The position numbers and the translations under genes were made by a program. Shown here piece after piece: positions 5,603 to 62,788 of a stretch of 64,000 nt of DNA; within the stretch, counting starts at the first letter, position 1; the number at the start of each line of letters is the position of its first letter. The notes below the pieces were generated by a model. It had not been told where the DNA came from and ran no database searches. It worked only from the letters and a program-made list of their open reading frames with translations. This DNA is from Diogma glabrata (lineage: Eukaryota > Arthropoda > Insecta > Diptera > Cylindrotomidae), in contig OY856188.1 of the NCBI GenBank assembly GCA_963693315.1, positions 222,567,517-222,631,516 on the forward strand, given 5' to 3'.

Positions 5603-5970
5603 TTATTTATTTATTTATTTATTTATTTACAAAAGAAATCCATAAATATGATTTCACATAATATACAAAAAAACAGAAATGATTACAAATCAAAGATGAT
5701 TAAACTATACAAATAATAATAGTAATCATTAAATTATAAAAAAAAATTAAAAGAACAAAGAATTAATAAATAACATTAATAAAATTAATAAATAGTTGTA
5801 CCTAAGCTTTGCTTAGCCGTCTAAAATAAAAAATTAAAAAAAATACATTTCCTATGTATAAATTTTAAAATAAAAATACAAAAGTAATAAAATTAATATA
5901 CAGATAAATTATAAATTACTTATAAAGTTGACTTAAAATATAATCTAAAAAGGTATTCAGAACGAAATTG
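5603..5970 (-). other. 3' untranslated region and (TAAA)n tail of the helicase-LINE
   Basis: On the minus strand the sequence after the reverse transcriptase stop is A-rich and ends in a TAAA tandem tail (5,603-5,629, read as TTAT repeats on the plus strand). Several LINE families end in short tandem repeats rather than poly(A), so this fixes the 3' end of the retrotransposon at about 5,603. Confidence 0.75.
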
Positions 5971-7869
5971 TCAAGGGTTGTTTAATTGCAGGTAGTGTTT
6001 TTTAATAATGTTTTTTAAATTTGATTTATTTATATCGAAGTCAAACAGATCGGAAATTTCATTAAAAGTGGAAGCCATGGCATTAATTGGTTCATGCATA
6101 CCATAGTTAGTTCTGTGAAATTGAATATTTAAGAAATCATGCTTACGTAAGGTTTTAGCCGGGACATTGAATGATATATTCTCAAGAATGTAAGGAGAAC
6201 TCATATTTCCGTTTATGATGTTTGCTAAAAAGCAGGATGATAGAAGTTTTCTTCTATCATCGAGATTAAGAATGTTGAATGTGTGGCATCTTTCCAAATA
6301 GGATGGAAGTAGTGCGAGGTTTTCATGATATGGGATACTGGGATCATATCTTCCTCCATTCTTGTAGTGAAGAAAGACTAGAAACTTTTTTTGAACTTTT
6401 TCTAATCTTTTAATATGCACTTCATAGTAAGGATTCCACACTTGAATAGCATACTCTATTTGAGAACGAACATAAGCAAAATACAATGTTATTATGCAAT
6501 CAATATCTTTTATGTCATTGGTCAAACGTTTAAGAAATCCAAGCATTTGATTAGCTTTAGCTATGGTGATATCCATGTGCTTATTGAAAGTTAGGTTTTG
6601 AGTAAAGATTATACCCAGATCTCTAACTTCACAAATTTGGGCTAGTTGGATATTATTGATATCGTAGCTGAAAATAATAGGATTACACTTTCTATAATGA
6701 CTTATGACTTTGCATTTATCAATATTCAGATCCAACTTCATTTTGTTACACCAGTCACTAATATGACTAATATCTTCTTGAAGCAGAATACAGTCTTCAA
6801 TCGTGTTAATAACTTTAAAAATTTTCATATCATCAGCGTAAATAAGTACCTGAGAGTTACCTATTATTTTGGCTATTCCGTCAATTAAACAAATAAAAAA
6901 CCAAGGTCCAAGATATGAGCCTTGAGGAACCCCAGATGTTACCTTGATGTTATCCGAGTATTTGCCATTAATACATACGTACTGGCTCCGATTGGACAGG
7001 TATGATTTTATCCACAGCACAAAGCGTTTCGAAAATCCGAATTCATATAGAGCGTCTAATGTTTTTAGGTGACTACAAGAGTCAAAGGCTTTTTTAAAAT
7101 CCGTATGAATTGTATCTACTTGTTTATGCTGCTCAATTGCTTTTATGGTAAAATTTGTAAACTCCACCAAATTAGTTGTCGTTGATCTGCCAGGTAGAAA
7201 ACCGTGCTGATTTATGGAAATGGAACTTGTTATTCTTTCTTTGAATGTATTACACATAATTACTTCGAACAATTTAGGTATTATCGATGTAGAAGAGACC
7301 CCTCTATAACACTTTATATCATTCCTGCAACCCGATTTGAAAATAGGTGTGATTTTAGAAATTTTCCATTTATCCGGAAAAGAATGAGAAATGAGTGACT
7401 TATTAAATAATAGCGATAATGGCAACGCTAGTTCGTCCTTAAAACGTTTTAGAAGATAGGATGGTATTCCGTCAGGGCCACATCCATCTTTAAAGTTATT
7501 AAGAGATTCAATAATTGTTTCCTCAGTTATAGTGGGTGTATCGATAAATATATTGTTTTGGTCCAAGACATTTTCAGAAAAATTGTGCTGGTTAATATCT
7601 TCTCCTTTATAAACGGATTGAAAAAAGCCTGCAAACATATTAGAAATTGTTTGATCATCCGAAGAATGAGTATCATCTAAAGTCATAGTTTTAGGAATTA
7701 TACGCGATTCTCTTTTAGATCGAAAATAATTCCAAAAGTGTTTCGGATTCGATTTAATTTTTGTTTGTAAATTCTCAATATACTTATCGAATTTGGAATT
7801 ATAGTAACTTGTAAATTCACTAGAATGTTCATTGATCTTAGAGTTCTCTTTTGTTCTTTTGTTAAGCAT
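5971..7869 (-). CDS. LINE reverse transcriptase (ORF2 C-terminal part)
   Basis: This 632-codon frame encodes the RNA-templated DNA polymerase used in target-primed reverse transcription. Visible motifs in order are CGPDGIPSYLL (about residue 130), the DFKKAFD aspartate block (about 254-260), SGVPQGSYLGP, and the catalytic YADD (about 342-345). The C-terminal region contains VWNPYYEVHIKRLEKVQKKF, typical of Jockey/CR1-like elements. No internal stop is present. The frame lacks its own natural start: its first Met sits in the tail of the preceding endonuclease frame, which ends at 7,862 in a different phase. Shifting by one base in the A-run at 7,888-7,900 connects the two, so this is the second half of one ORF2 rather than an independent gene. 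It looks young: all catalytic blocks are intact. Confidence 0.9.
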   Translation of the reverse strand: MLNKRTKENSKINEHSSEFTSYYNSKFDKYIENLQTKIKSNPKHFWNYFRSKRESRIIPKTMTLDDTHSSDDQTISNMFAGFFQSVYKGEDINQHNFSENVLDQNNIFIDTPTITEETIIESLNNFKDGCGPDGIPSYLLKRFKDELALPLSLLFNKSLISHSFPDKWKISKITPIFKSGCRNDIKCYRGVSSTSIIPKLFEVIMCNTFKERITSSISINQHGFLPGRSTTTNLVEFTNFTIKAIEQHKQVDTIHTDFKKAFDSCSHLKTLDALYEFGFSKRFVLWIKSYLSNRSQYVCINGKYSDNIKVTSGVPQGSYLGPWFFICLIDGIAKIIGNSQVLIYADDMKIFKVINTIEDCILLQEDISHISDWCNKMKLDLNIDKCKVISHYRKCNPIIFSYDINNIQLAQICEVRDLGIIFTQNLTFNKHMDITIAKANQMLGFLKRLTNDIKDIDCIITLYFAYVRSQIEYAIQVWNPYYEVHIKRLEKVQKKFLVFLHYKNGGRYDPSIPYHENLALLPSYLERCHTFNILNLDDRRKLLSSCFLANIINGNMSSPYILENISFNVPAKTLRKHDFLNIQFHRTNYGMHEPINAMASTFNEISDLFDFDINKSNLKNIIKKHYLQLNNP

Positions 7870-10800
7870 GTTGCGGTATGCTTTGTTTTTTTTTTTTGAG
7901 ATTAATCAGTATATTATCATACCAAGGGGGATATTTTGTAGAAATAGTTTTTTCGAATGGTACAAATTTTTCAAATCCAATTGTGAGCAATTCATAAAAA
8001 ATATCAAGACAATCATTGATATTTTTATGTTGAAATTCAGGCGACCAATCAATGTTTGTTAAATATGTTGAAAAATTATTTTGTACTTTACGAAAATTAA
8101 ATTGAAAATCATTGCTAATAGCGGATCGGTTGGATTTTTCCTTAATCCTGAGAGATACTTCCAAACTTTTATGATTAATATCGTTCGATACAAATGGATG
8201 ATTTGATTCAGTGATATAAATCCAATCAACATCATTAGCAAAAATTAAATCAAGATACTTATTTCTGTTGTTAGCTATACCGTTAAGCTGGTACATGTCA
8301 AGAGCAAAAACGGTGTCTAAAAACATAGACTCAACGCTGTTTGATACATTAGATGGCAGCATACAATTGGATTCTATGTCAAAATCCCAGTTTAGATTTG
8401 GTAAATTGAAATCTCCAAAAATTAGAATTCTATCTTCAGGGTTAACATCGCCGCATATTTCACTTATCACTTCACAAAAGTTAGCATACACCGTGTATGG
8501 GGAACATGGAGGAATGTACACGACAAATATTAATAGATTCATCTTTCCAATCCCGATTTTAACACATAACATTTCCAGAGATTCTATCGAGAGCTTAACC
8601 CTCTCACTTTGAATGAAAGATTTAAGCGCGATAAGAACTCCACCACCACTTGATTTTTTACTATTCAGAATTGAGCGGTCACATCGATAAACAATGTATT
8701 CTGGAGGAAAGAATTCTGAGCTGGCTAAATTTTCATTTAAAGATGTTTCACAAAGAATGTATCCAAAGAAATCTGATATCAACACAAATTTATGAAATTC
8801 AGAAGCTTTAGAAGACATTCGATTAACATTCTGAAAATAAAATGAGATAAGATCCGGTTGTTGTGATTTATTAAATGTCTGTTTTTTCTTAAATGTCTGT
8901 TTTTTCTTAATTAAATCAGCTTCCTTATTACACGATTTATTAACTATAACCTTAATGAGATCAGTAGTATTGGCGTAAATGGCTCTTTTCGCATACGAAA
9001 GTAGTACGTCGTTTGAACAATTTTCTGAAAACAAATATTGAAATGAAACGGTGTGTCTTGTTAGTGCCACGATAATATGAGGTTCACTCTTAAAAATCTC
9101 AATTTCTTCACTAGAAAGCCTGATGCAAATAACATGTTTATATGTTAAGCCTTGAGCTTCATGGATGGTTAAAATTTTACTGGTTGGTGGAATTTTCAAA
9201 TTAGATAATAAATACTGCTTATCTTTTTTAAGAAATGTGATATAAAGAGTATCATCTTTTACTGGAACGCTAAATCCCAAGACTATTTTATTAAATGCTA
9301 CAGATTTCATTATAGAATTAGTTGTATTAAAATTTGGATACATATCTGAAAGAGCAAATACAATATCAGAAGGACATCTATAAGTTAGTGTTAAGGAACT
9401 TGTTGAGGTGACAATCTTACCTGGATTAGAGTACTTAAAATCGACAAAGTGATTACGATCGATAAAAGGAATCTGTTTATTGTCTCCCAAAACAAACATT
9501 TTCTTACAACCACTTAAGAAACATACCAGACCAATAAATCCGGCGTGTACCATAAGATATTCATCAACAAACACAGTGTCAAATTTTTTAGTGCAGTTTA
9601 CCAGATAAGATGCAATTGTGCGGTAATTCGATTCAATGTCTGAAAAATTCAATTTTTTGGCTTCACAGAACTTCATAACTTTTTCTTTAATTGAAATAAC
9701 TCCTTCTCTGGACGCGCATAGAACTAAATCCAAACCAGGCTTATGATTATTGAAAATCCACGTGGATTTACCACAACCAGGAACCCCTTCTAAGGATATT
9801 ATTTCAGGCTGTGAGATCTTATGAAGGGAGTAGTTGTTTAATAAAATATTCTGTTGGATGTCAAAGTCAATGAAAATTTCAGTTGCAGAACAGCAATATA
9901 TGTATTGTCTATCAGATTTGAATTTTAGTAAATCGATATCAAATTTAACCAATTCCACACCATCGTACCCCCAACTATGAGTGTTTGGACTTTCTATTAG
10001 GTACGTCTTGGATATATTATCATAAACGTATATTTTTGCTGATTTTAACGAAGATGCTGAATAAGGTAACGTATTTTTAGTGTTTGTATAGTTATTATTA
10101 AAATGATTAATAATGAACTGCTTAGAAAATTTCAAATAAAACATAATTTCGATTACTGAATTTAAAAAATAATTATCAGAATTGGATGGCATGAAATTTG
10201 GAGATTCAACGGATGACATAGTTCCCTTCGGTTTGACTTGAGGTATATCATCAAAAATGAACCGCGACGATAATGCAAATTTAAAAGAGAAAAAGTTGTT
10301 AATAGGAACCAGAATTTTGAACTTAATATTATTAAAAAAACTACCTGAAATGAAAGATAAGAGGTTATTATATTGTACTACACTAGAAGGTAAGTCGAAA
10401 TCGATACGAAAATTGGTTGCTTTTTCACATAGTAAATTTGAAAGAAGTTTTATTAAGTGAACAACATCTTCACAGCTGGTCTTGAGCTGATTGTTGATGA
10501 TGATGACATGTTGATTCTTCAGCATATATGCAGAAGAAACACAGTTGATATAGGTAAAAAGATGATCGTTAAATACCACTTTGTTGCTCTTTAAAAAATT
10601 TTTCAGGTATCCGTTTTCCAGTTCATTAAACAGATTAACCACAATTAAAATCGAAGTTTTTGGAAGTTTATTGCAATCACTACTCAGATATTTCCAAACC
10701 ACTGGTTCTGAGAGACCGTCGTTAAATGAAGCTAGTCCACATATAAAGTCCAAAATGTCACTTTTAATGGAAACAGCGGACTTAGCATTTGAATTTTTTA

Positions 10801-11143
10801 TTCCTATCTTCGATTTAAGTTTTTGAAGCATTGACTTATTTGGTTTAGTTGAAACAGCAGAACCAGTTTGGGTGGAACCATCCTTAACATTCAGTTCAGT
10901 TGTTGATTTACATCTGAAAAATATGTCCGAACATGTTATATTAAGCATCTTACCTAACACTTCACAGGAAACGTTTCTCATTGAACTGTCTAGTGAAGTG
11001 GTTTTGAATTGCTGGACAACTGCAGCATTTTCTGTTTTATTGGTCAGTTCCTTTACGTAATTAATGCATTGAGGCCATTTTGTTGAAAATTTGATTTCCT
11101 TTGGCGCCAAGCGAATTCTTGAACGATTAAACCAGAAGGCCAA
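7862..11143 (-). CDS. Virus-type SF1 helicase fused to LINE endonuclease
   Basis: This is a 1,093-codon open frame. Residues about 450-700 are a superfamily-1 helicase: Walker A GVPGCGKST (about 453), Walker B VFVDEY (about 525), LGDNKQIPF (about 552), LTYRCPSDI (about 583), TIHEAQGLTY (about 657), VALTRHT (about 690). This set is characteristic of alphavirus-like replicases, closest in feel to virga/nege-like viruses. Residues 1-440 are unassigned and probably the replicase region upstream of the helicase. A lysine-rich linker (about 745-757) leads into an apurinic-type endonuclease: NVNRM (about 768), CETSL (about 791), YIPPCSPY, GDFNLPNLNWD (about 905) and a DINH motif near 1,000, so catalytic residues look present. 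The frame opens at TTG just after an in-frame TAA; the first ATG is about codon 54. The frame ends in LKKKKQ at an A-run and continues as the reverse transcriptase after a one-base shift. Absence of stops across about 750 viral-type codons argues for recent origin or selection. Confidence 0.85.
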   Translation of the reverse strand: MAFWFNRSRIRLAPKEIKFSTKWPQCINYVKELTNKTENAAVVQQFKTTSLDSSMRNVSCEVLGKMLNITCSDIFFRCKSTTELNVKDGSTQTGSAVSTKPNKSMLQKLKSKIGIKNSNAKSAVSIKSDILDFICGLASFNDGLSEPVVWKYLSSDCNKLPKTSILIVVNLFNELENGYLKNFLKSNKVVFNDHLFTYINCVSSAYMLKNQHVIIINNQLKTSCEDVVHLIKLLSNLLCEKATNFRIDFDLPSSVVQYNNLLSFISGSFFNNIKFKILVPINNFFSFKFALSSRFIFDDIPQVKPKGTMSSVESPNFMPSNSDNYFLNSVIEIMFYLKFSKQFIINHFNNNYTNTKNTLPYSASSLKSAKIYVYDNISKTYLIESPNTHSWGYDGVELVKFDIDLLKFKSDRQYIYCCSATEIFIDFDIQQNILLNNYSLHKISQPEIISLEGVPGCGKSTWIFNNHKPGLDLVLCASREGVISIKEKVMKFCEAKKLNFSDIESNYRTIASYLVNCTKKFDTVFVDEYLMVHAGFIGLVCFLSGCKKMFVLGDNKQIPFIDRNHFVDFKYSNPGKIVTSTSSLTLTYRCPSDIVFALSDMYPNFNTTNSIMKSVAFNKIVLGFSVPVKDDTLYITFLKKDKQYLLSNLKIPPTSKILTIHEAQGLTYKHVICIRLSSEEIEIFKSEPHIIVALTRHTVSFQYLFSENCSNDVLLSYAKRAIYANTTDLIKVIVNKSCNKEADLIKKKQTFKKKQTFNKSQQPDLISFYFQNVNRMSSKASEFHKFVLISDFFGYILCETSLNENLASSEFFPPEYIVYRCDRSILNSKKSSGGGVLIALKSFIQSERVKLSIESLEMLCVKIGIGKMNLLIFVVYIPPCSPYTVYANFCEVISEICGDVNPEDRILIFGDFNLPNLNWDFDIESNCMLPSNVSNSVESMFLDTVFALDMYQLNGIANNRNKYLDLIFANDVDWIYITESNHPFVSNDINHKSLEVSLRIKEKSNRSAISNDFQFNFRKVQNNFSTYLTNIDWSPEFQHKNINDCLDIFYELLTIGFEKFVPFEKTISTKYPPWYDNILINLKKKKQSIPQHA

Positions 11144-11400
11144 GAGTGTTTACTTATTACCGTGTTGAAGTAAGATTCTGGAACACTAATTCTGTACGAT
11201 GCGTAATCACAGGATACTCCATTTATCACTTTTGGTGGCAATCTTATGGGATTCGCGCCTTTAACACATAATGAATTTTTAAGATAACCATTCATTGCAC
11301 CGAGAAAAAATATTGCGACGCTGATGCATAGGCTGACTTCACCACAGCTCTGGAAACATAGTGTTCTGGATATATAATGAGCTAATATCCATAAAATACT
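11053..11400 (-). pseudogene. Possible upstream part of the viral replicase, frame-broken
   Basis: An open stretch runs from a stop near 11,401 to 11,053, with Met at 11,295. It includes LPPKVINGVSCDYASYRISV, which I read as possibly the region after the capping (methyltransferase) domain of alphavirus-like replicases. It overlaps the start of the helicase frame in a different phase; the frame break lies near 11,140, where homology appears to pass from one phase to the other. The assignment rests on position and a weak resemblance only. Confidence 0.45.
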
Positions 11401-11504
11401 TTAATTAAAAGCTAACCAATATTATGGACTTCGTAGTTCTAATAATAAAAATATTAAAGCAGGCAGTAGTATCCCAACAAACATAAATTCTGTTGTTCGA
11501 AAAA

Positions 11505-14500
11505 AAGTAAAAAAAATTTTATCGGAAGTGGCAAAGCGGAAGTTAGGATGCAGAACTGTTGTAAACTTTACTAAATGGGTATGTACCAAATTTCATCCAA
11601 CTCGATTATTAGGTACAGAAGTTATTGAGCTTCCAAAATAACAGGTGCTTGGAGGACCCCCTACCACTTTGTTCACTATCGCTAAAATAACTAAGCAGTT
11701 CCTTGCCATACATATTTGCATCTTTTTGCAAAGTGTAATCAAAATTACTTAACGAACGAATGTTGTATGCTTCCAACAAACATTGAAACAATAAACAGGT
11801 GTTCGGGAGGACCCCACCACTTATCCCAATATTGTCCAAAAACTAGTCAATTCTTTGTCAATAAAGTCTTTATCTTTTTTCAAAGTGCCATTAAAATTGA
11901 TTAATGAATGAAATCTGTATGCTCCCAACAAACTTTAAAAACCAATGTGTCCCAAAAGATGATAATTATCTTCTTACACTAATTGAAATTTTTCCATAAG
12001 TTTTATCATAATCACTTCATTATTGTAGGCTGTAGTGTGCATAAAGATACTGAAAAAACTGCCAACAAGTAAAAAAAATTTTTTTTTACCGGAAGCAAAA
12101 AACCGGAAGTTGGGATGCAGAATTTTTGTAAATCATACTAAATGCTTATGTACAAAGTTTCATCCAATTCGATTATCAAGTAGTTATTGAGCTTTAAAAA
12201 AAACAGGTGTATGGGACACCCCTCACCACTTTGTTCACTATCGCTCAAAAACTAATCAGTTCTTTGCCATACATGTTTGCAATTTTTTCCAAAGTGTCAT
12301 TAAAATTGGTTCACGAACGAATGCTGTGTGCTCCCAACAAACATTGAAAAAATGCTGACACAGTAAACAAGTGTTCGGGAGACCCCGTACCACTTATCCC
12401 AATATTGTCCAAAAACTAATCAGTTCCTTGTCATTTAAGTTTCCATCTTTTTCCAAAGTGTCATTAGAATTGATTAATGAATGAAGTCTGTATGCTCCCA
12501 ACAAACTTTAAAAACAAAGTGTGAAAAGTCAGCAGTTGTATGGTAGACCCCCCGCCACTTTGATCAATGTGTCCCAAAAGATGATAATTATCTTCTTACA
12601 CTAATTGGAACCCTATTCCATAAGTTTTATCATAATCACTTCATTATTGTAGGCTGTAGTGTGCATAAAGACACTGAAAAAACTTCAAAAAAGTACAAAA
12701 AAAAATTTTTTACTGGAAGTAAAAAACCGGAAGTTGGGATGCAGAACTATTTTAAATCGTACTTCATACTTATGTAACAAGTTTCATCCAATTCGCTTAT
12801 CAGGTACAGAAGTTATAGAGCTTTCAAAAAAACAGGTGCTCCAGGGACCCCCCACCACTTTGTTCACTATCGCTCAAAAACTAATCAGTTCTTTGCCATA
12901 CATGTTTGCATCTTTTTCCAAAGTGTCATCAAAATTCGTTCACGAACGAATGCTGTGTGCTCCCAACAAACATTGAAAAAAGTGTGACACATACCTGTTT
13001 AATGTGTTTTCGGGAGGACCCCCACCACTTATTCCAATATTATCCAAAAACTAATCAGTTCTTTGTTACTTAAGTTTTCATCATTTGCCAAAGTGTCATT
13101 AAAATAAATTAAGGAACGAAGTCTGTATGCTCCCAACAAACTTAAAAAACAAAGTGTGAAAAGTCAGCATTTGTATGGTAGACCCCCCACCACTTTGATC
13201 AATGTGTCCTAAAACATAATAATTATCTTTTCACACTAATTGGAACCCTATTCCATAAGTTTCATCATAATCACTTCATTGTTGTAGGCTGTAGTGTGCA
13301 TAAAGACACTGAAAAAACTTCAAAAAAGTACAAAAAAATTTTTTTTACCGGAAGTGAAAAACCGGAAGTTGGGATGCAGAACTATTTGAAACCGTACTAC
13401 ATACTCATGTACCAAGTTTCATCCAATTCGCTTATCACGTACAGAAGTTATAGAGCTTTCAAAAAAACAGGTGCTCCAGGGACCCCCCACCACTTTGTTC
13501 ACTATCGCTCAAAAACTAATCAGTTCTTTGCCATACATGTTTGCATCTTTTTCCAAAGTGTCATCAAAATTCGTTCACGAACGAATGCTGTGTGCTCCCA
13601 ACAAACATTGAAAAAAGTGTGACACATACCTGTTTAATGTGTTTTCGGGAGGACCCCCACCACTTATTCCAATATTATCCAAAAACTAATCAGTTCTTTG
13701 TTACTTAAGTTTTCATCATTTGCCAAAGTGTCATTAAAATAAATTAAGGAACGAAGTCTGTATGCTCCCAACAAACTTAAAAAACAAAGTGTGAAAAGTC
13801 AGCATTTGTATGGTAGACCCCCCACCACTTTGATCAATGTGTCCTAAAACATAATAATTATCTTTTCACACTAATTGGAACCCTATTCCATAAGTTTCAT
13901 CATAATCACTTCATTGTTGTAGGCTGTAGTGTGCATAAAGACACTGAAAAAACTTCAAAAAAGTACAAAAAAATTTTTTTTACCGGAAGTGAAAAACCGG
14001 AAGTTGGGATGCAGAACTATTTGAAACCGTACTACATACTCATGTACCAAGTTTCATCCAATTCGCTTATCACGTACAGAAGTTATAGAGCTTTCAAAAA
14101 AACAGGTGCTCCAGGGACCCCCCACCACTTTGTTCACTATCGCTCAAAAACTAATCAGTTCTTTGTCATACATGTTTGCATCTTTTTCCAAAGTGTCATC
14201 AAAATTCGTTCACGAACGAATGCTGTGTGCTCCCAACAAACATTGAAAAAAGTGTGACACATTAAACAGGTGTTCGGGAGGACCCCCTTCACTTATTCCA
14301 ATATTATCCAAAAACTAATCAGTTCTTTGTTACTTAAGTCTCCATTATTTGCCAAAGTGTCATTAAAATTGAATAATGAATGAAGTCTGTATGCTCCCAA
14401 CAAACTTAAAAAACAAAGTGTGAAAAGTCAGCATTTGTATGGTAGACCCCCCACCACTTTGACCAATGTGTCCTAAAACATAATAATTATCTTTTCACAC

Positions 14501-15970
14501 TAATTGGAAACCTATTCCATAAGTTTCATCATAATCACTTCATTATTGTAGGCTGTAGTGTGCATAAAGACACTGAAAAAACTTCAAAAAAGTACAAAAA
14601 AATTTTTTTTACCGGAAGTGAAAAACCGGAAGTTGGGATGCAGAACTATTTTAAACCGTACTACATACTCATGTATCAAGTTTCATCCAATTCGCTTATC
14701 ACGTACAGAAGTTATAGAGCTTTCAAAAAAACAGGTGCTCCAGGGACCCCCCACCACTTTGTTCACTATCGCTCAAAAACTAATCAGTTCTTTGCCATAC
14801 ATGTTTGCATCTTTTTCCAAAGTGTCATCAAAATTCGTTCACGAACGAATGCTGTGTGCTCCCAACAAACATTGAAAAAAGTGTGACACATTAAACAGGT
14901 GTTCGGGAGGACCCCCACCACTTATTCCAATATTATCCAAAAACTAATCAGTTCTTTGTTACTTAAGTCTCCATTATTTGCCAAAGTGTCATTAAAATTG
15001 AATAATGAATGAAGTCTGTATGCTCCCAACAAACTTAAAAAACAAAGTGTGAAAAGTCAGCATTTGTATGGTAGACCCCCCACCACTTTGATCAATGTGT
15101 CCCAAAACATGATAATTATCTTTTCACACTAATTGGAACCCTATTCCATAAGTTTCATCATAATCACTTCATTATTGTAGGCTGTAGTGTGCATAAGGAC
15201 ACTGAAAAAACTTCAAAAAAGTACAAAAAAAATTTTTTTACCGGAAGTGAAAAACCGGAAGTTGGGATGCAGAACTATTTTAAACCGTACTACATACTCA
15301 TGTACCAAGTTTCATCCAATTCGCTTATCAGGTACAGAAGTTATAGAGCTTTCAAAAAAACAGGTGCTCCAGGGACCCCCCACCACTTTGTTCACTATCG
15401 CTCAAAAACTAATCAGTTCTTTGTCATACATGTTTGCATCTTTTTCCAAAGTTTCATCAAAATTCGTTCACGAATGAATGTTTTATGCTCCCAACAAACA
15501 TAAAAACTTTGTGGAAAAAACCACCTGTTGTATGGTGGACCCCCCAACCCTTTATCCAATGTGCTCCAAAAGCTGATAAAATCTTTCTCATGTTATTTAA
15601 AAGCTTTTCGCAACGTTTCATGAAAATCGATCGGTAATTGTAGGCTACAGTAGGGATAAACACCTGAAAAAAAAACTTTTTAACCGGAAGTGACAAACCG
15701 GAAGATGGTATGCAGAAATATTGGAAACAGTATTAAAACCTTATATACTAAGTTTCAGTAAGATCATAGCTCGGAATCAGAAGTTATTCAAGATTTAAAC
15801 TTAGAGGTGTTCGGGAGACCCCCCGCCATTTTGTCCAAATTTAAAATGAATCCAGATCTTCTATTTTCAAGTGAACCTGTATCATTTGCCAAAGTTTCAT
15901 CAAGATCCTATGCAGAAAACTCAAACACCCACACACCCACCCACCCACCCACCCACCCACCCACACACAG
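11505..15970. repeat. Tandem array of about 630-bp higher-order units
   Basis: The landmark GTGCATAAAGACACTGAAAA recurs at about 12,661, 13,296, 13,931, 14,560 and 15,189 (steps 635, 635, 629, 629), with a diverged copy at about 12,037 and partial, more diverged ends to left and right. Inside each unit a GACCCCCCACCACTT block recurs about every 165 bp with similar following sequence (CTAATCAGTTCTTTG, then AAAGTGTCAT, then CTCCCAACAAAC), so the unit is itself built from related subunits. CCGGAAGT occurs twice in each unit. The right edge ends in an ACCC/ACAC microsatellite (about 15,924-15,969). Conserved open frames of 96-108 codons exist only because the DNA is repeated; they have no known motifs and no ATG starts. 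Confidence 0.9.
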
Positions 15971-21988: not shown

Positions 21989-23585
21989 TCATAATACTTG
22001 AGGGTATTCAATGTTTTTTGTTGATCCATTGTCTGTGTGGATATAGAGATTGCCTGGTTTGCCAACTCTAAAACACGCAACATATAATTGTCCATGTAAG
22101 AAACAATCGTTATCTAGATCTAAACCACATACTTCCAATGTTTGGCCCTGAGCTTTGTAGATGGTGATTGCAAATGCCAATCGAATTGGGAATTGCAGTC
22201 TTTTAAATTGAAATGGCATATCCGTTGGTATCATGGGTATGCGAGGAATGAAGACATCTTCGCTTTTGAAAGGTCCATTCAAGATTGTTGCTTTTACTAC
22301 GTTGCTCAATAATTTTTTTGCTGTGAGTCGCGTGCCATTGCAAAGTTTTGGCTGATTGATATTACGCAACATGATGATTGGCACGCCAATTTTAAATTGT
22401 AGTACATGTGGTGGCATCCCTGGTAGATCAAGTGAATTCAAAAATTCTGTTGGATAGCTAACTGCTTCATCTGCTTCCATGACAGTGTCTACGGACTTGT
22501 ATGTGACTTCCTCGCTTTGAATATTAGACATAATTAAATTGTTAAATTCATTGACGTCTTTGTTTTTGGCCGCAAGAATGATTCGTTCACTCAGCCAATC
22601 GTGATTCTTATGATTAATTTGAATATCAGGAAATATTTTTTCAATTAATTCCTCTTTTGACGACACTAAATTGCAGAAGTTATGAGGCAATAAAATTCGT
22701 CCTATTGTTAAATCAACCGGCACCTTTCCGTCACCAATTCTCAGCAATTGATATGAGAATATCTCAGCTGATTTATCTTTTTGGAGGAGAACACGGATGT
22801 TTGTCGATAATTTTAACCTTTTCACGTATCGCCACAAAGTAGAATATTTCAAGCAAGCATTTATTTCATCTGCCGGTGTTGATCGGGGAACTACAGCTAA
22901 TGTTTGTCTGAAATCTCCTGCAAGAAATATTAATGCATTCCCAAATGGTCTGGTATTTCCACGCAAATCTTGCAATGATCGATCAAGCGCTTCAAGTGAT
23001 TTTTTGCGCGCCATTGTGCATTCAGCCCAAATGATTAGTTTACATTTCTGCAATACTTTTCCAATTCCCCATCCTTTGGAAAGGTTGCATGTGGGCGTTT
23101 CAATGAATTGCATGTTTAATGGCAATTTCAAAGCGGAATGAGCTGTTCTTCCATCTGGTAGCAATGTCGCAGCTATGCCGGACGACGCAAGAGCTAAAGC
23201 TATGCTATTTTACGGTTGAATTACTGCTAGAATCGTTTAAGAATCGTTTTAAGAAACGTTTTGCCAGTTCCTCCTGGCGCATCCAAGAAAAAGATTCCTA
23301 CAACCCCGTTATCAACATTTTGCATTAGTTGATCGTAAATTGTTTTTTGTTCAAACGTTAGCTTCGGAATATTTGATTGCACATACGACAGTTACTTCTG
23401 TAATCCTTTTATTTATTTATGATGGGTGATAGCATGCAAATTCGTATTGATGTTATCAGCATTCAATGGTATTGCTACACTCGAATCACTCAAATTTAAT
23501 GTTTTTAAGTACTCAGAAATACAGCTAAACTTACCATCTGATTCATTGGCACTTTCATAAAAATCACTAAGCGCAAGTTGTTAGT
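21989..23585 (-). pseudogene. Helitron PIF1-type helicase, C-terminal part, broken
   Basis: Minus-strand sequence encodes the 5'-to-3' DNA helicase half of a rolling-circle Helitron protein. The first part (about 23,585-23,225) has PKLTFEQKTIYDQLM and Walker A DAPGGTGKTF, then a stop. A different phase continues with ALALASSGIAATLLPDGRTA, followed by the 391-codon open frame 23,164-21,989: IIWAECTMA (Walker B position), GDFRQTLAVVP, AITIYKAQGQTL and YVACFRVG. The Rep nuclease half is missing. Besides a stop and frameshift near 23,215, Walker B carries Ala where Asp is expected, so the helicase would be inactive even if read through. Confidence 0.85.
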
Positions 23586-25249: not shown

Positions 25250-26914
25250 ATTACTTCGGTCTGAAAGACCTAAGTATTACATTCATGAGCCAAAAGTGAA
25301 ATTCTTACCCCCACTTTTTTTGACATTTCTCGACTAGGACCTACTGATTCTAAAAAAGCAAAAAAAAAAATGTATGTCTGTCTGCCGGCCGTCCGTCCGT
25401 CATTACCTACGCTGCAGGGAAAACCGCTGGAAGGATTTCAAAATTTTTTTTTTCTAGAAATAGGTATTTACAAGGGACAGGTTTGAAAGGACGCTGTGTT
25501 CGATAACTGTACCGGAAGTGTGTCAAAAAAATCATTATGTGTGTCAAAAATAGCAAATTTTCATATTTTTGGCTTAAAAAACATTCATTTTAAGTGATTA
25601 TGAGTAGGAACATTGAATTTGGAGAAATCTTGATGGTCGGGATTGGTATGTGAGATCAAAAACTAGATTATTGCATTATAAGTTTGTCAAAAAAATGTTG
25701 TCAAGTGTGTCAAAAGAAAGATTTTGTATTTATTTTTTTGCCCAATTTTTTGGAAAAAAAAATAAAATTAATTGTTTGTTTGAAATGAAGTTTTATTATT
25801 GTTATTATTGAGAATTATGGCATTAAAAGTTTGTCAAAAAATGTTGTCAAGTGTGTCAAAAGAAAGATTTTTTTATTTATTTTTTTACCCAATTTTTTGG
25901 AAAAAAAAATAAAATTAATTGTTTGTTTGAAATGAAGTTTTATTATTATTATTGAGAATTATGGCATTATAAGTTTGTCAAAAAACTGTTGTCAAGTGCG
26001 TCAAAAGAAAGATTTTGTGTTTGCTTTTTTACCTAATTTTTTGGAAAAAAATAAAATTGTTTGTTTGAAATGAAATTTTATTATTATTATTGAGAATTAT
26101 GGCATTATAAGCTTGTCAAAAAAATGTTGTCAAGTGTGTCAAAAGATTTTTATTTAGTTTTTTACTTAATTTTTTGGAAAAAAATAAAATTGTTTCTTTG
26201 AAATGAAATTTTATTATTACTATTGAGAATTATGGCATTATAAGTTTGTCAAAAAATGTTGTCAAGTGTGTCAAAAGAAAGGTTTTATTTATTTTTTTCC
26301 CAATTTTTTTAGAAAAAAATAAAATTAATAGTTTGTATGACATGATATTTTATTATTATAATAGAGAATTATGGCATTATAAGTTTGTCAAAAAATAATG
26401 TCAAGTGTGTCAAAAAATGATTTCATTTATTTTTTTAGCCAATTTTTTGGAAAAAAAAATGTAGCTGTTTTTATGACGTAAATGTAATTTAAAATGAAAT
26501 TGGACATGGAAATTTTTGAATTTGTTATAGTTTTTGAAATATTTTTGGAATTTTGAAAAAGTTTGTATTTTTGATTTTGTAATAATTTTTGCAATATTTT
26601 GGGAATTCCGGCAAAAGTTTTAAATTTTGATTTTGTAAGAATTTTTGGAATATTTTTAGAATTTTGAAAAATTTTTAATTTTATAAAATTTTATAATTTT
26701 TCGGCAACGTATTGATGTTTCGTGTTAGTTTTGTATAAATTTTTAAACAGAGATAAAAAATACTTGTACTTTAACAAAGAGTTATGTTTGATATACATCG
26801 CTGCTCAAAACTAAAAACCATGTCCTTATAAAAGTTTGTTGCCGAAAACTATATCAAAATCCTTAACCCAGACCGAAGTCTTGATATCTCAGAGCTGTGA
26901 GATTTCAGCCCCTT
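25250..26914 (+). repeat. Minisatellite-bearing dispersed repeat, copy A
   Basis: Starts ATTACTTCGGTCTGAAAGAC, passes a GC-rich CTGCCGGCCGTCCGTCCGTC block, then six tandem units of about 140 bp (GCATTATAAGTTTGTCAAAA at about 25,673, 25,821, 25,964, 26,102, 26,234, 26,374), then a degenerate TTTTGGAATTTTGAAAAAG region. It ends with GACCGAAGTCTTGATATCTC and GTGAGATTTCAGCCC. GACCGAAGT near the end is the inverse of ACTTCGGTC at the start. No transposase is encoded. Copies B (37,359) and C (51,493) share the same order and orientation. Confidence 0.85.
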
Positions 26915-33575: not shown

Positions 33576-33596
33576 TATGACTACTAGTTTTTATCG

Positions 33597-34640
33597 ACTA
33601 CTATACTAGCTAATGTCGTACTTGCTCGACTCATCCCGTTCGCCGAATCTATCATCGGTGACTATCAGTGTGGTTTTCGTCCCAACCACTCAACCACAGA
33701 TCAATGTTTTACATTAAGGATGATTCTGGAAAAATGTTGGGAGTACAACATCAGCATTCACCAGCTCTACGTTGATTTCAGGCAAGCATATGATAGTATC
33801 ATCCGCGACAACCTCTGGTCCGCACTCATATGCCTTGGTATCCCAGAGAAACTTGTTTCTCTGTACAAACTCACAACATCGGGATCAAATTGTAGAATAG
33901 TAATCGAAGGGTCAGTTTTTGATCCTTTCGATATAACATCAGGTGTTCGACAAGGTGATGCACTCGCGTCCGTACTATTTAAATTGGCGCTGGAGTACGC
34001 GATAAGAAAAAGCCGAATTGATACACAAAACTGCATATATAACAAATCTAGTCAAGTTCTTGGCTACGCAGATGATATTGTGCTTCTCGGAAGTAGAACA
34101 AGCGATATTAAGGATAGTCTCTCTCAGCTTGAAAGAAATGCTAAGCGACTTGGATTATGCATCAACACCGGCAAAACGAAAGTGTTAACAACATCTAAGA
34201 ACATACCTCCTGGAAATCTGGATACTGGCGACTATGAAGTGGAACGCGTGGAAAACTTCAAATACCTCGGGTCAGTAATAACATCGTCAAATGACATGCA
34301 GGCAGATATCAAAGCACCTGTCTCTGCCGCATACAGAGTTTTCTACGCACACTCAAAACGTTTGCGATCAAAACACCTTACGCGGTCGTGTAACCTCACA
34401 CTTTGCAAATCATTAATCCGACCTGTGCTTACATTTGGAAGTGAAAGCTGGACGCTGACTTCCTCGGATTGTAGAATTTTATTAACATTCGAGAGGAAGG
34501 TCATACGAACAATTTATGGTCCATGTAAAGTTGCTGAAAATCAGTATAGAATCCGAATGAATCATGAAATCAGACAGCTTCTTGGAGACTGCGATGTAAT
34601 GGGATTCATTAAATCCAACCGGATTAGATGGTTTGGTTAT
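33597..34640 (+). CDS. RTE-type LINE reverse transcriptase, partial
   Basis: The frame is open from about 33,597 into the assembly gap, with an internal Met at 33,720. Motifs are IIGDYQCGFRPNHSTTDQ, LYVDFRQAYDS (aspartate block), TSGVRQGDALASVLF, LGYADDIVLLG (catalytic), LGLCINTGKTK and ENFKYLGSVIT. The combination DFRQAYDS, GVRQGD and FKYLGS is typical of the RTE clade. The N-terminal endonuclease is missing, so the copy is 5' truncated at about 33,597. The end is unknown because the gap begins 11 residues after RIRWFGY would be expected to continue. No stop or frameshift is visible. Confidence 0.9.
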
Positions 34641-34840
34641 NNNNNNNNNNNNNNNNNNNNNNNNNNNNNNNNNNNNNNNNNNNNNNNNNNNNNNNNNNNN
34701 NNNNNNNNNNNNNNNNNNNNNNNNNNNNNNNNNNNNNNNNNNNNNNNNNNNNNNNNNNNNNNNNNNNNNNNNNNNNNNNNNNNNNNNNNNNNNNNNNNNN
34801 NNNNNNNNNNNNNNNNNNNNNNNNNNNNNNNNNNNNNNNN
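34641..34840. other. Assembly gap (200 N)
   Basis: A run of exactly 200 undetermined bases, a conventional scaffold placeholder, so the true distance is unknown. It cuts the reverse transcriptase frame. Confidence 0.99.
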
Positions 34841-34923
34841 CATTTAAGCTAAAATTTGTATTTTGTACCTAGATTAACACCTAGTCAGCGGTGGGGAAAC
34901 TCCTTATCACATATTCTGATACA

Positions 34924-37358: not shown

Positions 37359-39174
37359 ATTACTTCGGTCTGAAAGACCTAAGTATTACATTCATGAGCT
37401 CAAAGTGAAATTCTTACCCCCACTTTTTTTGACATTTCTCGACGTTTTAAGACTTACTGATTCTAAAAAATCAAAAAAAAATGTATTTCTGTCGGCCGGC
37501 CGGCCGTCCGTTCGTCATTACCTACGCTGCAGGGAAAACCGCTGGAGGGATTTCAAAATTTTTTCTAAAAATAGGTATACTCAAGGGACAAGTCCGAAAG
37601 GACGCTGTGTTCGATAACTGTACCGGAAGTGTGTCAAAAACAGCAAATTTTCATATTTTTGGCTTAAAAAACGTTCATTTTAAGTGACTACGAGTAGGAA
37701 TATTAAATTTGGAGAAATCTTGATAGTAGGGATTGGTATGTGAGATCAAAAACTAGATTATTGCATTATAAGTTTGTCAAAAAAATGTTGTCAAGTGTGT
37801 CAAAAGAAAGATTTTTTTTATTTTTTTACCCAATTTTTGGGAAAAAAATAAAATTAATTATTTGTTTGAATGAAATTTTATTATTATTATTGAGAATTAT
37901 GGTATTATAAGTTTGTCAAAAAAATGTTGTCAAGTGTGTCAAAATAAAGATTTTTTAATTATTTTTTTACCCAATTTTTTGGAAAGAAAATAAAATTAAT
38001 TATTTGTTTGAAATGAAATTTTATTATTATTATTGAGAATTATGGCATTATAAGTTTGTCAAAAAAATGTTGTCAAGTGTGTCAAAATAAAGATTTTTAT
38101 TTAGTTTTTTACCCAATTTCTTGGAAAAAAATAAAATTAATAATATGATATGATATTTTATTATTATTATTGAGAATTATGGCATTATAAGTTTGTCAAA
38201 AAAATGTTGTCAAGTGTGTCAAAAGAAAGATTTTTATTTATTTTTTTACCCAATTTCTTAGAAAAAAATAAAATTAATAATTTGTATGACATGAAATTTT
38301 ATTATTATATTATAGAGAATTATGCCATTATAAGTTTGTCAAAAAAATAATGTCAGGTGTGTCAAAAAATGATTTCATTTATTATTTTGACCTATTTTTT
38401 GGAAAAAAAATGAAGCTGTTTTTATGACGTAAATGTAATTCAACATGAATTTGGACATGGACATTTTTGAATTTGTTATAGTTTTTGAAATATTTTTGGA
38501 ATTTTGAAAAAAGATTGTATTTTGTTTTTGTAATAATTTTTGCAATATTTTTAGAATTTTGGAAAAAGTTTTAATTTTTGTTTTTGTAAGAATTTTTGGA
38601 ATATTTTTAGAATTTTGAAAAAATTTTAAATTTTTTATTTTGTTAAAATTTTTAACTTTGGAAAAAGTTTCAATTTTTGATTTTGTTATAATTTATGCAA
38701 TATGTTTAGAGTTTTTGAAAAAGTTTTAACCTTTGATTTTGTAATAATTTTTAAAATATTTTTAGAATTTTGTTTGAAAAAAGTTTGAATTTTTCATTTT
38801 ATTTAATTTTTACAATATTTTTGGAATTTCGAAAGAAATATGAATTTGTGATTTTGAAACATTTTCTCGAAACGCTAAATCTAGAGGTTTTGAGTAGTTT
38901 GCTGATTGTATAATCTTTTCACTAAATTATGTTAATTTAGGATCTGTTATAATTTTCCAACAAAGTATTGATGTTTCGGGTTAGTGTTTTCGAGTTAAAC
39001 ATATCTAAACAGAGATTAAAAAAATACCTGTTCTTTAACAAAGAGTTATGTTTGATATACATCGCTGCCCAAAACTAAAAACCATGTCCTCATAAAAGTT
39101 TCTTGCCGAAAACTATATCAAATTAAGGATTTTGACCGAAGTCTTGATATCTCAAAGCTGTGAGATTTCAGCCC
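37359..39174 (+). repeat. Minisatellite-bearing dispersed repeat, copy B
   Basis: Same organisation as copy A: ATTACTTCGGTCTGAAAGAC start, GGCCGGCCGGCCGTCCG block, five units of about 140 bp (landmark at 37,763, 37,902, 38,045, 38,182, 38,325), a long degenerate TTTTTGGAATTTTGAAAAA region, and the end GACCGAAGTCTTGATATCTC to GATTTCAGCCC. The degenerate region is longer than in copy A. It inserted just after the LINE tail at 37,305. Confidence 0.85.
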
Positions 39175-51492: not shown

Positions 51493-52735
51493 ATTACTTC
51501 GGTCTGAAAGACCTAAGTTTTACATTCATGAGCTCAAAGTGAAATTCTCACCCCCACTTTTTTTGGCATTTCTCGACGTTTTAGGACTTACTGATTCTAA
51601 AAAAGCAAAAAAAAAAATGTATGTCTGTCTGCCGGCCGGCCGTCATTACCTACGCTGCAGGGAAAACCGCTTGAGGGATTTCAAAATTTTTTTCAAAGCA
51701 CTCTCGGTTCTAATTTTTTTCTTTCCTCAATGAATGAAGATTGCTGTTTTGCTATAAAGTTGTGTGGTATCAAAATTTGTAAACGGTAAACAAATTCTTC
51801 ATAAATTCTTCTACAGTTTCTATTAAAGTATCCCAATTGCATCGATCAATGGTAATCCATTGTTGATATTTGACTTGAAGGATTCCTTTAACGTCAAAAT
51901 CATTTAGTAATCTTTCTTCCAGTTGTTTTTTCTTCAAGTTTTTTTGGGATTTCAAAATTTTTTTTTTCTAAAAATAGGTATACTCAAGGGACAGGTCCGA
52001 AAGGACGCTGTGTTCGATAACTGTACCGGAAGTCTGTCAAAAAATCATTATGTGTGTCAAAAATAGCAAATTTTCATATTTTCGGCTTAAAAAACGTTCA
52101 TTTTAAGTGATTACGAGTAAATTTGGAGAAATCTTGATGGTAGGGATTGGTATGTGAGATCAAAAACTAGATTATTGCATTATAAGTTTGTCAAAAAAAT
52201 GTTATCAAGTGTGTCAAAAGAAAGATTTTTATTTATTTTTTTACCTAAGTTTTTGGAAAAAAAATAAAATTAGTTGTTTGTTTGAAATGAAATTTTATTA
52301 TTATTATTGAGAATTATGGCATTATAAGTTTGTCAAAAAATGTTGTCAAGTGTGTCAAAAGAAGGTTTTTATTTATTTTTTTACCCAATTTTTGGAAAAA
52401 AATAAAATTGTTTGTTTGAAATGAAATTTTATTATTATTATTGAGAATTATGGCATTATAAGTTTGTCAAAAAAATGTTGTCAAGTGTGTCAAAAGAAAG
52501 TTTTTATTTATTTGTTTACCCAATTTTTTGGAAAAAAATAAAATTGTTTGTTTGAAATGAAATTTTATTATTATTATAGAGAATTATGGCATTATGAGTT
52601 TGTCAAAAAAAATTTCAATTTTTGATTTTGTAATAATTTTTGCAATATTTTTAGAATTTTGGAAAAAGTTTGAATTTTTAAGAATTTTTGGATTATTATT
52701 GGAATTTAGAAAAAGTTTAAATATTTGATTTTTGA
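51493..52735 (+). repeat. Minisatellite-bearing dispersed repeat, copy C (truncated)
   Basis: Starts ATTACTTCGGTCTGAAAGAC; four units of about 140 bp (landmark at 52,177, 52,319, 52,453, 52,590). The usual 3' end (GACCGAAGT) is missing, replaced at about 52,735 by unrelated sequence. A 252-bp insert interrupts it at 51,694-51,945. Confidence 0.85.
51694..51945 (-). pseudogene. Transposase gene fragment inserted in copy C
   Basis: This stretch is nearly identical to 55,333-55,587 and encodes, on the minus strand, LLNDFDVKGILQVKYQQWIT and FMKNLFTVYKF. It is bounded on both sides by GGGATTTCAAAATTTTTTT, which occurs only once at this site in copies A and B, so it looks like a target duplication of about 19 bp. 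The fragment begins and ends inside the coding sequence and has no poly(A) beyond A-rich coding runs. Confidence 0.8.
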
Positions 52736-58726: not shown

Positions 58727-60913
58727 TTATGAGGAATTCAAAGTTTTAAATTTAGTTAGAATTTTATTCTTGAATTGATCCCTAATCATATTAGAGTCAT
58801 AAAAAGCACTATACTTATTAAAATTTCTGATACATTCGTTAAGTGGGTTATAAAAAGAATAATCATGTCTATGAAGTTCTTCAATAAGAGGCCGCCTGTG
58901 TCTTGTATTATAAGTATGACAACTGGGAACCATCATTTCACACAATTCAGGACACCTTATATTACCTCTGACTAGCTCGAAACCAAATAAAGCAGAAGCA
59001 AGCTCACGTCTTGTTTTTAGTGAGACCCTATTCAGCAGTAAAAGTCTTTCTTCATATTTAGGCAGTCTGTATCCAGTAAAACCGAGAGGTTTTAATGCAA
59101 AGAGTAAGAATTGTTTTTGTACCGATTCTTATAGAGCTTGCGAATAACTCGGTATAAGGCGACCAAATTATACTAGCATATTCCATTTTTGATTGAACTA
59201 ACCCGAGCAGAAATTTCTTAGGGCTCAAATACGGCCCTGATCAGGTTGACCTTAGTTTGACAGGGCCCTGATCATGAGTGTAACGCTATTGCCCAATCAG
59301 ACCCTGATTGGGAAAAACGGATCAGGCACTGATCAAGTTTTTCATATAATATTGAATAGGGCAAACCCTAGTAAGGCATTTTGTATCAGGCCCTGATCAG
59401 ATTGCCCAACTAGGGGTCATATATGAAAAATCGAATCAGGGCCGGATATATTCAAATAAGGTTAGCCCTAAAAGGGTATTCTAATTCAGGTCCGGAACAG
59501 GCCCTGATCACGCTCTGACTGTATTCAGGCTTTCCCCAACTAATTTCTGCTCGGGAATGAACAGTACAAAGTTTTTGTCAAGGTGATGTCGTTGAATTCT
59601 TTTGCCCTACGTTTAATAAAGCCAAAAATAGCATGCTCACTTGTGCAGATTTGGTTGATATGCTGTTTGTATGTCAAGGAACTATCTAACATAACACCCA
59701 AGTCCTTAATAATATTAACCCTTGAAAGATTAGATCCATTTACATTATATGTATATTCTATTTTTTGGCTGCTTCTGGCGAATGTTATTACCATACATTT
59801 TTCAATGTTCAAATACATTCCATTTAGTAGACACCAGTTGTATAAAATGGCAATACCTCGGCAGTTAGAAATCTTACGCTTATGTCCATTTTTAAAGATA
59901 GGAGTTATAAATGATGATTTCCAGATATCAGGAAAGAAAAACTGACTTAGAGAAAGATTAAATAAATATTGTAGATGCTTTGCTATACTAGTTACTGTCC
60001 TTTTAATGAATTTTGGAGGAATTAAATCTGGTCCCGGCCCTTTTTAAATGTCCAAAGACTGAATTGAATTAAAAACATCTTCAAGCGTAAGTTCGATTTC
60101 TAGTATTCTGTCAGCTGAGTGCAAAATATGTGACTGGTCAGTTTCTTTAAAGATAAAAGATGGTTGACAAACTCTCTCAAAATGATGTGCAAACATTTCA
60201 GCTATTAAAATCGGTCGAAATTATAGTGTCAATTACATTTTTCCTTCTTTTCTCAGTAAAAAAATAAGTAAATTGAAGTATTTGATGGTGAACAGAGGTT
60301 TTTGATGTCAATTTTAGTGAAGCTATAACCAGATCAAAATTGGATGAAAAACTTTTAATTAGAAAATCATAACAAGTGATATCAATATTAACGGGGTCAT
60401 ATATATTTTCCTGTAAATCATTGGCAACCCAATGAATATTCGGCATATTGGCATCACCATAAATAAAAATGTAATCATCAATTGTCATGTTTAAGTTAAG
60501 GTTTGCTATTGAATTAGCTAGATTATTATAACTATTTATGTTTGACTTGGCGGTATATAGAAAGCACTTACAAATAAAAATTTACCATTTAGTTGTAGTT
60601 TACATGCAACAATGTCAAATGAGGTGTCATCACTTACAGATTGTAGCTGAATGAATACAACACCCCTAAGTTGATCTGTATCGGTATTAGAAAGTATTCG
60701 ATCTTTTCTGTAGATAGACCATCCATCAGGAACAATTTCAAATGTTAAATGTTGACTCTCTAACCATGATTCTGTCACGATGACAACATCATAATCGGAG
60801 TTATCTAGATCGTTTCTGAAATTTTCCAACGATGACATCATGCCTGACATGTTGTGAAAGTAGATGCTTAAGCTCTTCGGTATTGATTCCAACGAGCTCA
60901 AAACCCGAAGCAC
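58727..60913 (-). pseudogene. LINE ORF2: endonuclease and core-deleted reverse transcriptase
   Basis: Endonuclease part: SLSIYFHNMSGMMSSLENFR, IVTESWL (catalytic Glu), FYIPPSQT, then after a frameshift IFIYGDANMPNIHWV (GDxN). The polymerase starts at about 60,045 with GPGPDLIPPKFIKR, WKSSFITPIFKNGHK and NCRGIAIL. It jumps directly to WCLLNGMYLNIEKC and NIIKDLGVMLDSSLTYKQHI, so the blocks with the DFxxAFD, SGVPQG and YADD motifs are deleted. After the MITE at 59,202-59,555 the C-terminus resumes (FALKPLGFTGYRLPKYEERL, HTYNTRHRRPL, MIRDQFKNKILTKF) and stops at about 58,727. Confidence 0.8.
59202..59555. mobile_element. MITE of 354 bp rich in CCCTGATCAG
   Basis: Terminal inverted repeats CCCGAGCAGAAATT and AATTTCTGCTCGGG. 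The interior repeats GGCCCTGATCAGG-type words at least five times, each containing the palindrome TGATCA, in both orientations. It splits the LINE ORF2 reading frame between LYCSF and QSKMEYA-type sequence, so it inserted after the LINE did. Target duplication is ambiguous (TGAAC words on both sides). Confidence 0.85.
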
Positions 60914-62090: not shown

Positions 62091-62788
62091 TTTGATTGAT
62101 TTTATTAAATTGATTTAAGTTTAATTATAATATTAAATCGCAATTCAACAGTTTTTTGAATTTTTATGAAAAATAAACATAATCAGCACTAAAACTCAAA
62201 GTAAAATGTTAATTAATTAAATAATTAATATTTCTATTGCACTAGTCTTGTAATTTTAAAATAGCACAAAATTGAATTTCATCACAAATAGATATTTTAA
62301 CTGTTTTATTATATCAGATTTTATAGTTTATAAATTCAAACTTCAAAAAACCAAAAGAAAAAGAATAAAACACAAAACTAAATTAAGCGAAAATCAAAAA
62401 CACAACCGTTCATCCCGAAATTTTTATTTTTAATACACAAATAATACACAAAATATTTCTACTCAATAACACATAAAACTTAATTCACAAAAACTAATTT
62501 AAAAATCACTTTTATAATTTTAACTTTACTATCGCAGGTTTAAAATAAAGAGTCACATTTTACTTTCGATTGAGTACGTACATGTTTTTGATTTGCTCTT
62601 TGAAATAAAATAAAAGTAAATAATTAAATTAATTTAGTGTTACTAAATTTGTGTAATTTATTCAAAATTATAAGTGTTATTAGTGTTATTAGTATTATTG
62701 CTAATAGTTTTTTGATTGTGTCTTGTTTTATTATAAAAACTGTTAATTCCTAAACTAAAACAAGTGTAACATTGTGATTTCATTTACT

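Follow-up and report, generated by a model that had tools for sequence, protein, structure and literature searches.

We analyzed a 64,000-nt window of the genome of Diogma glabrata (Diptera, Cylindrotomidae; contig OY856188.1, positions 222,567,517 to 222,631,516; "the window" is this whole stretch) and found a long interspersed element (LINE) in which a virus-type superfamily 1 (SF1) helicase precedes the endonuclease (EN) within open reading frame 2 (ORF2). Comparison of genomic copies with a helicase-free sister family shows that the N-terminal leader of ORF2 contains, in frame, a ~2.1-kb segment carrying the helicase, and that ORF1 is a separate frame upstream. As judged from substitution patterns, the helicase is under purifying selection as strong as that on EN, and the fusion has spread as a unit, giving rise to at least two subfamilies. 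Insect LINEs with viral helicases have been described before; their placement at the N-terminus of ORF2 behind ORF1 is new with respect to the literature surveyed.

The helicase and endonuclease share one frame in the window copy

The ORF2 frame of the window copy runs on the minus strand from 11149 to 7865 plus stop and measures 1,095 codons from stop to stop. A chance open frame was rejected, as the longest one-strand frame in 300 simulated sequences of 20 kb each was 194 codons. The frame contains the complete SF1 motif set I-VI (six motifs) in the correct order, and its translation also contains the EN motifs CETSL and GDFN. The parts of the element in the window are as follows (aa, amino acids of ORF2; RT, reverse transcriptase).

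11056-11298 (minus): 3′ remnant of ORF1, final 81 codons (...SWPSGLIVQEF...), by homology to other copies
11015-11149 (minus): ORF2 leader, aa 1-45, overlapping the ORF1 end in a different frame; resembles the sister leader
8876-11014 (minus): inserted segment of ~2.1 kb, aa 46 to ~758, both edges approximate; absent from the sister family
9032-10039 (minus): SF1 helicase of tobamovirus type plus a portion of its N-terminal domain (aa 371-706), by Pfam, PDB and motifs
9787-9761 (minus): helicase motif GVPGCGKST, in the ORF2 frame
9574-9557 (minus): helicase motif VFVDEY, in the ORF2 frame
9490-9464 (minus): helicase motif LGDNKQIPF, in the ORF2 frame
9169-9140 (minus): helicase motif TIHEAQGLTY, in the ORF2 frame
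9070-9050 (minus): helicase motif VALTRHT, in the ORF2 frame
8858-8944 (minus): helicase-EN linker, aa 736-764, holding an 18-nt tandem duplication at 8867-8910
7886-8857 (minus): LINE EN of the exonuclease-endonuclease-phosphatase type, aa 765-1088, by Exo_endo_phos_2 and identity to the sister EN
7886-7897 (minus): 12-A run at which the EN and RT frames separate in the window copy, by translation
5974-7905 (minus): RT part of ORF2, by RVT_1 at 7317-6697 and PDB
5603-5629 (minus): 3′ tail (AAAT)n, a tandem repeat

An earlier note on this DNA had described an RNA-virus-type SF1 helicase in one frame with a LINE endonuclease, and profile searches agree with this description. Pfam Viral_helicase1 matched aa 454-706 (9790-9032, minus strand) with an E value of 3.4e-37. 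Exo_endo_phos_2 matched with E 7.7e-6 when the entire frame was the query (26.2 bits, slightly below the 27.4 cut-off) and with E 1.7e-6 when the EN part alone was used (28.3 bits, exceeding the cut-off). RVT_1 matched with E 4.1e-25 in an overlapping minus-strand frame, 7905-5974, and the RT part matches the L1 and R2 reverse transcriptases in PDB, where EN alone gave a single match that is not meaningful (E 0.31). The earliest in-frame ATG of the inserted segment is located at 10981-10979 on the minus strand. The duplication in the linker, read as a KKQTFKKKQTF repeat, occurs in the window copy only among the copies aligned there. Since the codon usage of the helicase is like that of EN and RT (distance 0.134 to each, with the two halves of RT differing by 0.181), it gives no indication of a recent arrival.

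The fusion recurs across the genome

A protein search of the 1.33-Gb assembly (G000) returned at least 51 matches at E <= 1e-3; 42 of 4,809 first-look candidates were scored, and the counts are thus lower bounds. The 30 loci fetched (L040-L069), some of which overlap at one place, represent 25 distinct places including the window. The helicase/EN junction was spanned by the alignment in 20 of them, which answers the proposal of the earlier note to look for further copies across it. These 20 include L055 and L062, where the alignment begins at ~aa 687 and ~aa 710 and little helicase is retained, and one place (L051/L063) with foreign sequence inserted at the linker. The junction was not spanned in L052, which has an internal deletion, in L057, whose match stops at ~aa 540, in L059, which is devoid of aa 46-752, or in L068 and L069, which match from EN onward only. 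The last two (G000:C1:244292081 and 244346960) are separated by ~55 kb, score equally in the search and align almost identically, and are possibly one duplicated region instead of two insertions. The copies are dispersed and often 5′-truncated, their matches starting at various points; young copies are ~96-99% identical to the window copy at the DNA level, and stops are present in many individual copies. An assembly error at the junction, considered as a separate explanation, is unlikely, given that other copies carry the junction too.

The window copy is a 5′-truncated member of a ~7-kb LINE family whose ORF2 protein is of the order helicase-EN-RT. It is cut off at 11298, and all nine other distinct places reaching this point have homology beginning there; eight of the nine, L041 being the exception, run on upstream into a common ORF1 sequence. 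ORF1 is open in L042 and L052, where it encodes 397 aa upstream of and separate from ORF2, with a cysteine-rich start (MNNLCGDC...) and the C-terminal stretch RKWV(F/S)VSRLSTSVTDEA...WPSGLIVQEF. A Pfam search with ORF1 yielded no confident domain (best E 0.043). The helicase had previously been placed where the ORF1 of a LINE normally sits; a LINE does carry the helicase, but ORF1 has not been replaced by it.

L042 and L052 share a 5′ end 444 nt ahead of ORF1, beyond which their flanks differ, the two copies lying at different sites, and they also share the 3′ end and 3′ untranslated region with an AAATA-type tail. L042 measures ~7.1 kb between its ends, its ORF1 being open and its ORF2 spread over more than one frame. 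The whole ORF2 is represented by L077, a natural copy whose helicase, EN and RT are read in one uninterrupted frame of 1,721 codons (1,665 from the first Met), with the helicase match at aa 454-706 ahead of the EN and RVT_1 matches; no RNase H was matched in this frame at E <= 0.05. At the 12-A run (7897-7886), where the window copy changes frame between EN and RT, L077 reads through continuously. The presence of EN and RT together in the ORF2 of L077 and the dispersal of copies with a common 3′ end and tail are characters of a LINE. As for target-site duplications, none of >= 9 nt was present in the stretch compared for the window copy, none was found for L041 and none was clear for L052, while the edges of L042 carry the 7-nt repeat AAAATTG on both sides, which is of low complexity.

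In the window itself, the upstream frame 11400-11053 matched a second, degenerate LINE modestly: its score was equalled by none of 1,000 target shuffles and was the best non-self match among 981 frames, while 2 of 100 shuffled queries equalled it window-wide. It was ORF1 in the other copies that settled the identity of the ORF1 tail, and only 11298-11056 belongs to the element.

A helicase-free sister family locates the inserted segment

Three loci, L072, L073 and L074, represent a sister family without the helicase, in which the ORF1 tail is 60% identical and EN (aa 759-1088) is 65-66% identical to those of the helicase family. The two families have the same type of ORF1 and a similar EN, and in both the ORF2 frame begins before ORF1 has ended; they differ in the helicase. 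The first ~30 residues of ORF2 are also alike, as judged by eye. The distance from the ORF1-tail match to the EN match is 77 nt in all three sister loci versus ~2.2 kb in the helicase family. Because ORF1 directly adjoins EN in the sister family, the extra segment of ~2.1 kb sits inside the N-terminal leader of ORF2, from ~aa 45 to ~aa 758.

The degenerate second LINE of the window (58727-61991, minus strand) retains pieces of EN and of RT, the latter 28-37% identical to the RT of the helicase family. Its ORF1-like sequence seems to abut EN (a weak tblastn match, E 0.009), and no helicase match was found in it.

The helicase is constrained as strongly as the endonuclease

Trees of the helicase and of EN both separate an older subfamily with a support of 1.000, consisting of L050 and L053 and, in the EN tree, additionally of L054, L058 and L062. 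The junction is present in both subfamilies. We counted the differences fixed between a young set of eight (the window copy, L041-L044, L047, L060 and L061) and an old set of two copies (L050 and L053) in the case of the helicase and of aa 46-300, and of five copies in the case of EN. Left out were L045, L046, L049, L051/L063, L052, L055, L059, L064, L068 and L069, all of which belong with the young copies, as well as the intermediate or divergent L048 and L057.

In the helicase (aa 301-745), 20 nonsynonymous differences in 1,038 sites and 29 synonymous differences in 294 sites were fixed between the subfamilies, giving a ratio of 0.19 (p 1e-8). The corresponding counts for EN were 16 in 753 and 24 in 204, giving a ratio of 0.18 (p 6e-8). 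The two ratios indicate that the helicase has been maintained by selection; a dN/dS comparison of helicase copies had been proposed in the earlier note. The codon projection behind all these counts disregards frame-shifting insertions, which limits them. Moreover, as differences fixed between subfamilies arise on the lineage that went on transposing, the element itself, rather than the host, is most likely what benefits from the helicase.

Pairwise nonsynonymous/synonymous ratios against the window copy were 0.24 and 0.29 for the helicase and 0.27 and 0.30 for EN in the old copies L050 and L053, respectively. For the helicase of L048 and L057 they were 0.39 (p 0.005) and 0.51 (p 0.02), and among young copies 0.20 in L042 (p 0.007) and 0.42 in L060 (p 0.11). 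Ratios within the older subfamily were mixed, from 0.20 to 1.43. The case for selection is built on the differences between subfamilies and not on pairs of young copies. The helicase motifs themselves were identical to those of the window copy in 13 of 17 rows for motif I, 20 of 20 for II, 15 of 19 for III, 16 of 18 for IV, 18 of 22 for V and 21 of 23 for VI, these rows including overlapping loci of single places.

The helicase resembles that of tobamovirus replicases

The best relatives of known structure are PDB 3wrx and 3vkw, both labelled "Replicase large subunit", which matched aa 371-706 with 113 bits (E 7e-32). We take these entries, together with 3wry, to be the tobamovirus replicase helicase of tomato mosaic virus. 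The helicase chains of alphavirus nsP2 in PDB scored 43-44 bits. Thus, of the alphavirus-like type named in the earlier note, the viral SF1 character stands and the affinity narrows to the tobamovirus or virga type, an assignment based on Pfam Viral_helicase1 and on the best solved-structure match. The LINE frame shares with the tobamovirus replicase the helicase core and part of its N-terminal domain; it differs in that the helicase is part of a retrotransposon and that no viral methyltransferase or polymerase was matched in Pfam at E <= 0.5. Database resemblance and the literature suggest that the helicase derives from a virga/nege-like positive-strand RNA virus.

In viral_contigs, two scans by peptide pattern confirmed no viral relative. 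Two scans by motif supplied 39 loci: matches to loci of the first scan were short and mostly confined to the surroundings of the nucleotide-binding motif (best E 4e-4), and the second scan's four loci gave no match at E <= 0.01. One scan of genome_contigs for viral relatives returned none, and neither did PHROGs. Ahead of the helicase, residues 1-400 of ORF2 gave a best E of 0.68 against PDB, and aa 46-300 gave no convincing match in Pfam or PDB. A single-sequence structure prediction reached a predicted local distance difference test (pLDDT) value of 33 and was not used.

Other repeats in the window

A satellite array at 11472-15906, with a unit of ~630 bp containing related sub-repeats, lies on the truncated 5′ side of the helicase LINE. 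Three tandem arrays at 25667-26460, 37757-38409 and 52171-52611 have much the same unit of ~139 bp. A frame at 21989-23209 (minus strand) encodes a Pif1-type helicase (PIF1, E 2.7e-33; Pif1_2B_dom) and is possibly a Helitron remnant. On the plus strand, 33588-34847 holds an RT fragment (RVT_1, E 1e-18) ~24% identical to the RT of the helicase family, and 62759-63778 holds a LINE ORF1-like frame of a different type (Baculo_FP_2nd, E 9.2e-17, with weak zinc-finger matches).

Comparison with known helicase-bearing LINEs

The literature cited here was surveyed in part. The first of the reports on viral helicases in insect LINEs dates from 2015, when Lazareva et al. (PMC4686597) described SF1 helicases in lepidopteran TRAS elements (R1 clade), where they form the C-terminus of the ORF2 protein and gave more than 40 matches in Plutella; Spodoptera cells also hold helicase-bearing TRAS-type elements (PMC5803895). 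Morozov et al. (2017, PMC5563155) then described SF1 helicases from Hemiptera and Orthoptera, where Jockey-like LINEs encode them in ORF1. Nilaparvata lugens has dozens of such sequences, including one contig in which the helicase frame overlaps ORF2 by 2 nt, and SF1 helicases are fused to proteins of long terminal repeat (LTR) elements in two other insects (PMC5563155). The findings on helicase-bearing elements are repeated in PMC6338049, and the part of PMC7658314 surveyed adds nothing further on helicase-bearing LINEs. The capture of a viral helicase by a LINE is therefore a kind of event already in print (PMC4686597, PMC5563155).

The D. glabrata family is like TRAS in that a virus-type SF1 helicase is fused to the ORF2 protein, but the helicase of TRAS is C-terminal, after RT, whereas that of the family described here is N-terminal, ahead of EN and RT (L077). 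It is like the Jockey-like LINEs in having EN and RT and a virga-like SF1 helicase with full motifs upstream of EN. In those elements, however, the helicase is ORF1 itself, in a frame close to or overlapping ORF2, whereas here it forms the N-terminus of ORF2 in frame with EN (and with RT in L077) and a separate ORF1 of 397 aa lies upstream. No description of an N-terminal ORF2 helicase behind a separate ORF1 was found in the passages of text surveyed, and no further reports of viral-helicase LINEs were apparent from the titles and abstract openings of the papers listed.

Origin and role of the helicase

We tentatively propose, as a reading that is plausible rather than probable, that the viral helicase is a working N-terminal module of ORF2 that assists target-primed reverse transcription, and that it represents a third separate gain beside those of TRAS and the Jockey-like LINEs. 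A LINE acquired a virus-type helicase segment within the N-terminal leader of ORF2. The helicase would act in cis, within the ORF2 protein bound to its own RNA as a ribonucleoprotein, and may melt the template RNA or displace RNA from the complementary DNA during target-primed reverse transcription. This role in cis is the one we favor and consider reasonably probable, because the helicase is fused to EN-RT and the search of the ORF2 frame gave no RNase H domain.

Two other histories were considered. Before the other copies were seen, a viral-type helicase adjoining the 3′ half of a LINE could have been taken for an endogenous viral fragment joined by template switching at one site and in frame by accident, and the earlier note had offered this beside a functional capture. 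The note had named a junction present only at this locus, with a normal ORF1 in other copies of the LINE, as the mark of a one-off chimera, and this is not the pattern observed. The junction recurs in 20 places and two subfamilies, LINE ORF1 lies beyond the viral part and the constraint is strong, which refutes a chance chimera; the recurrence and the purifying selection on the helicase support a capture kept by selection. Alternatively, the helicase may be ancestral to both families and lost in the sister family. A clean loss of aa 46-752 does occur (L059), and helicase-bearing Jockey-like LINEs are present in Hemiptera and Orthoptera (PMC5563155). However, ORF1 lies near EN both in the sister family and, by a weaker match, in the distant degenerate LINE of the window, which makes a gain in one lineage simpler than a loss; we regard the loss as unlikely.

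The role of the helicase also admits other explanations. In the same element it might act mainly as a suppressor of RNA silencing, binding or unwinding small or double-stranded RNA and so evading control by small interfering RNAs or PIWI-interacting RNAs. The related LINE helicase of Plutella xylostella complemented the transport of a suppressor-deficient plant virus (PMC4686597) and weakly suppressed silencing in leaves (PMC5563155), and purifying selection fits this function equally well. Silencing suppression, however, would not need a physical fusion to EN-RT, and the published test was done in plants and called preliminary by its authors (PMC4686597). We consider this role the main alternative, though a rather unlikely one. 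It is much less probable that the helicase is retained for antiviral defence of the host, for example through virus-matching RNA or interference with virus replication, as suggested in PMC5563155 and PMC6338049, since the constraint falls on the differences between subfamilies, hence on the transposing lineage, and equals that on EN, and many individual copies have stops or altered motifs.

Several observations weigh against helicase-assisted reverse transcription. The sister family manages without the helicase. L059 (G000:C4:254555428-254556576, minus strand), in which aa 1-45 of ORF2 directly adjoin aa 753 onward and which is elsewhere 97-100% identical, retains part of ORF1 and EN-RT sequence without aa 46-752; helicase-free copies can thus be made, by later deletion or with help in trans. 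Within the inserted segment, aa 46-300 are weakly constrained (16 nonsynonymous differences in 590 sites and 9 synonymous in 166; ratio 0.50, p 0.09). Taken one at a time, the young copies give weak comparisons (L041, 0.39, p 0.15; L061, 0.75, p 0.71), and the old subfamily in the helicase test consists of two copies. Finally, the selection signal cannot separate unwinding from silencing suppression, and the unwinding role in cis is deduced here from sequence.

In the literature surveyed, the value of a helicase to such elements was argued from conserved motifs, from expression and from a plant assay of preliminary character (PMC4686597, PMC5563155). In D. glabrata, one genome provides a natural comparison among two subfamilies that bear the helicase, a closely related sister family without it and a copy that has lost it by deletion. 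That helicase and EN are equally constrained along the transposing lineage is evidence of service to the element. The contribution of a helicase to LINE retrotransposition thereby becomes a testable question. If the proposal is true, a third gain in another position would mean that LINEs recruit the same viral enzyme repeatedly.

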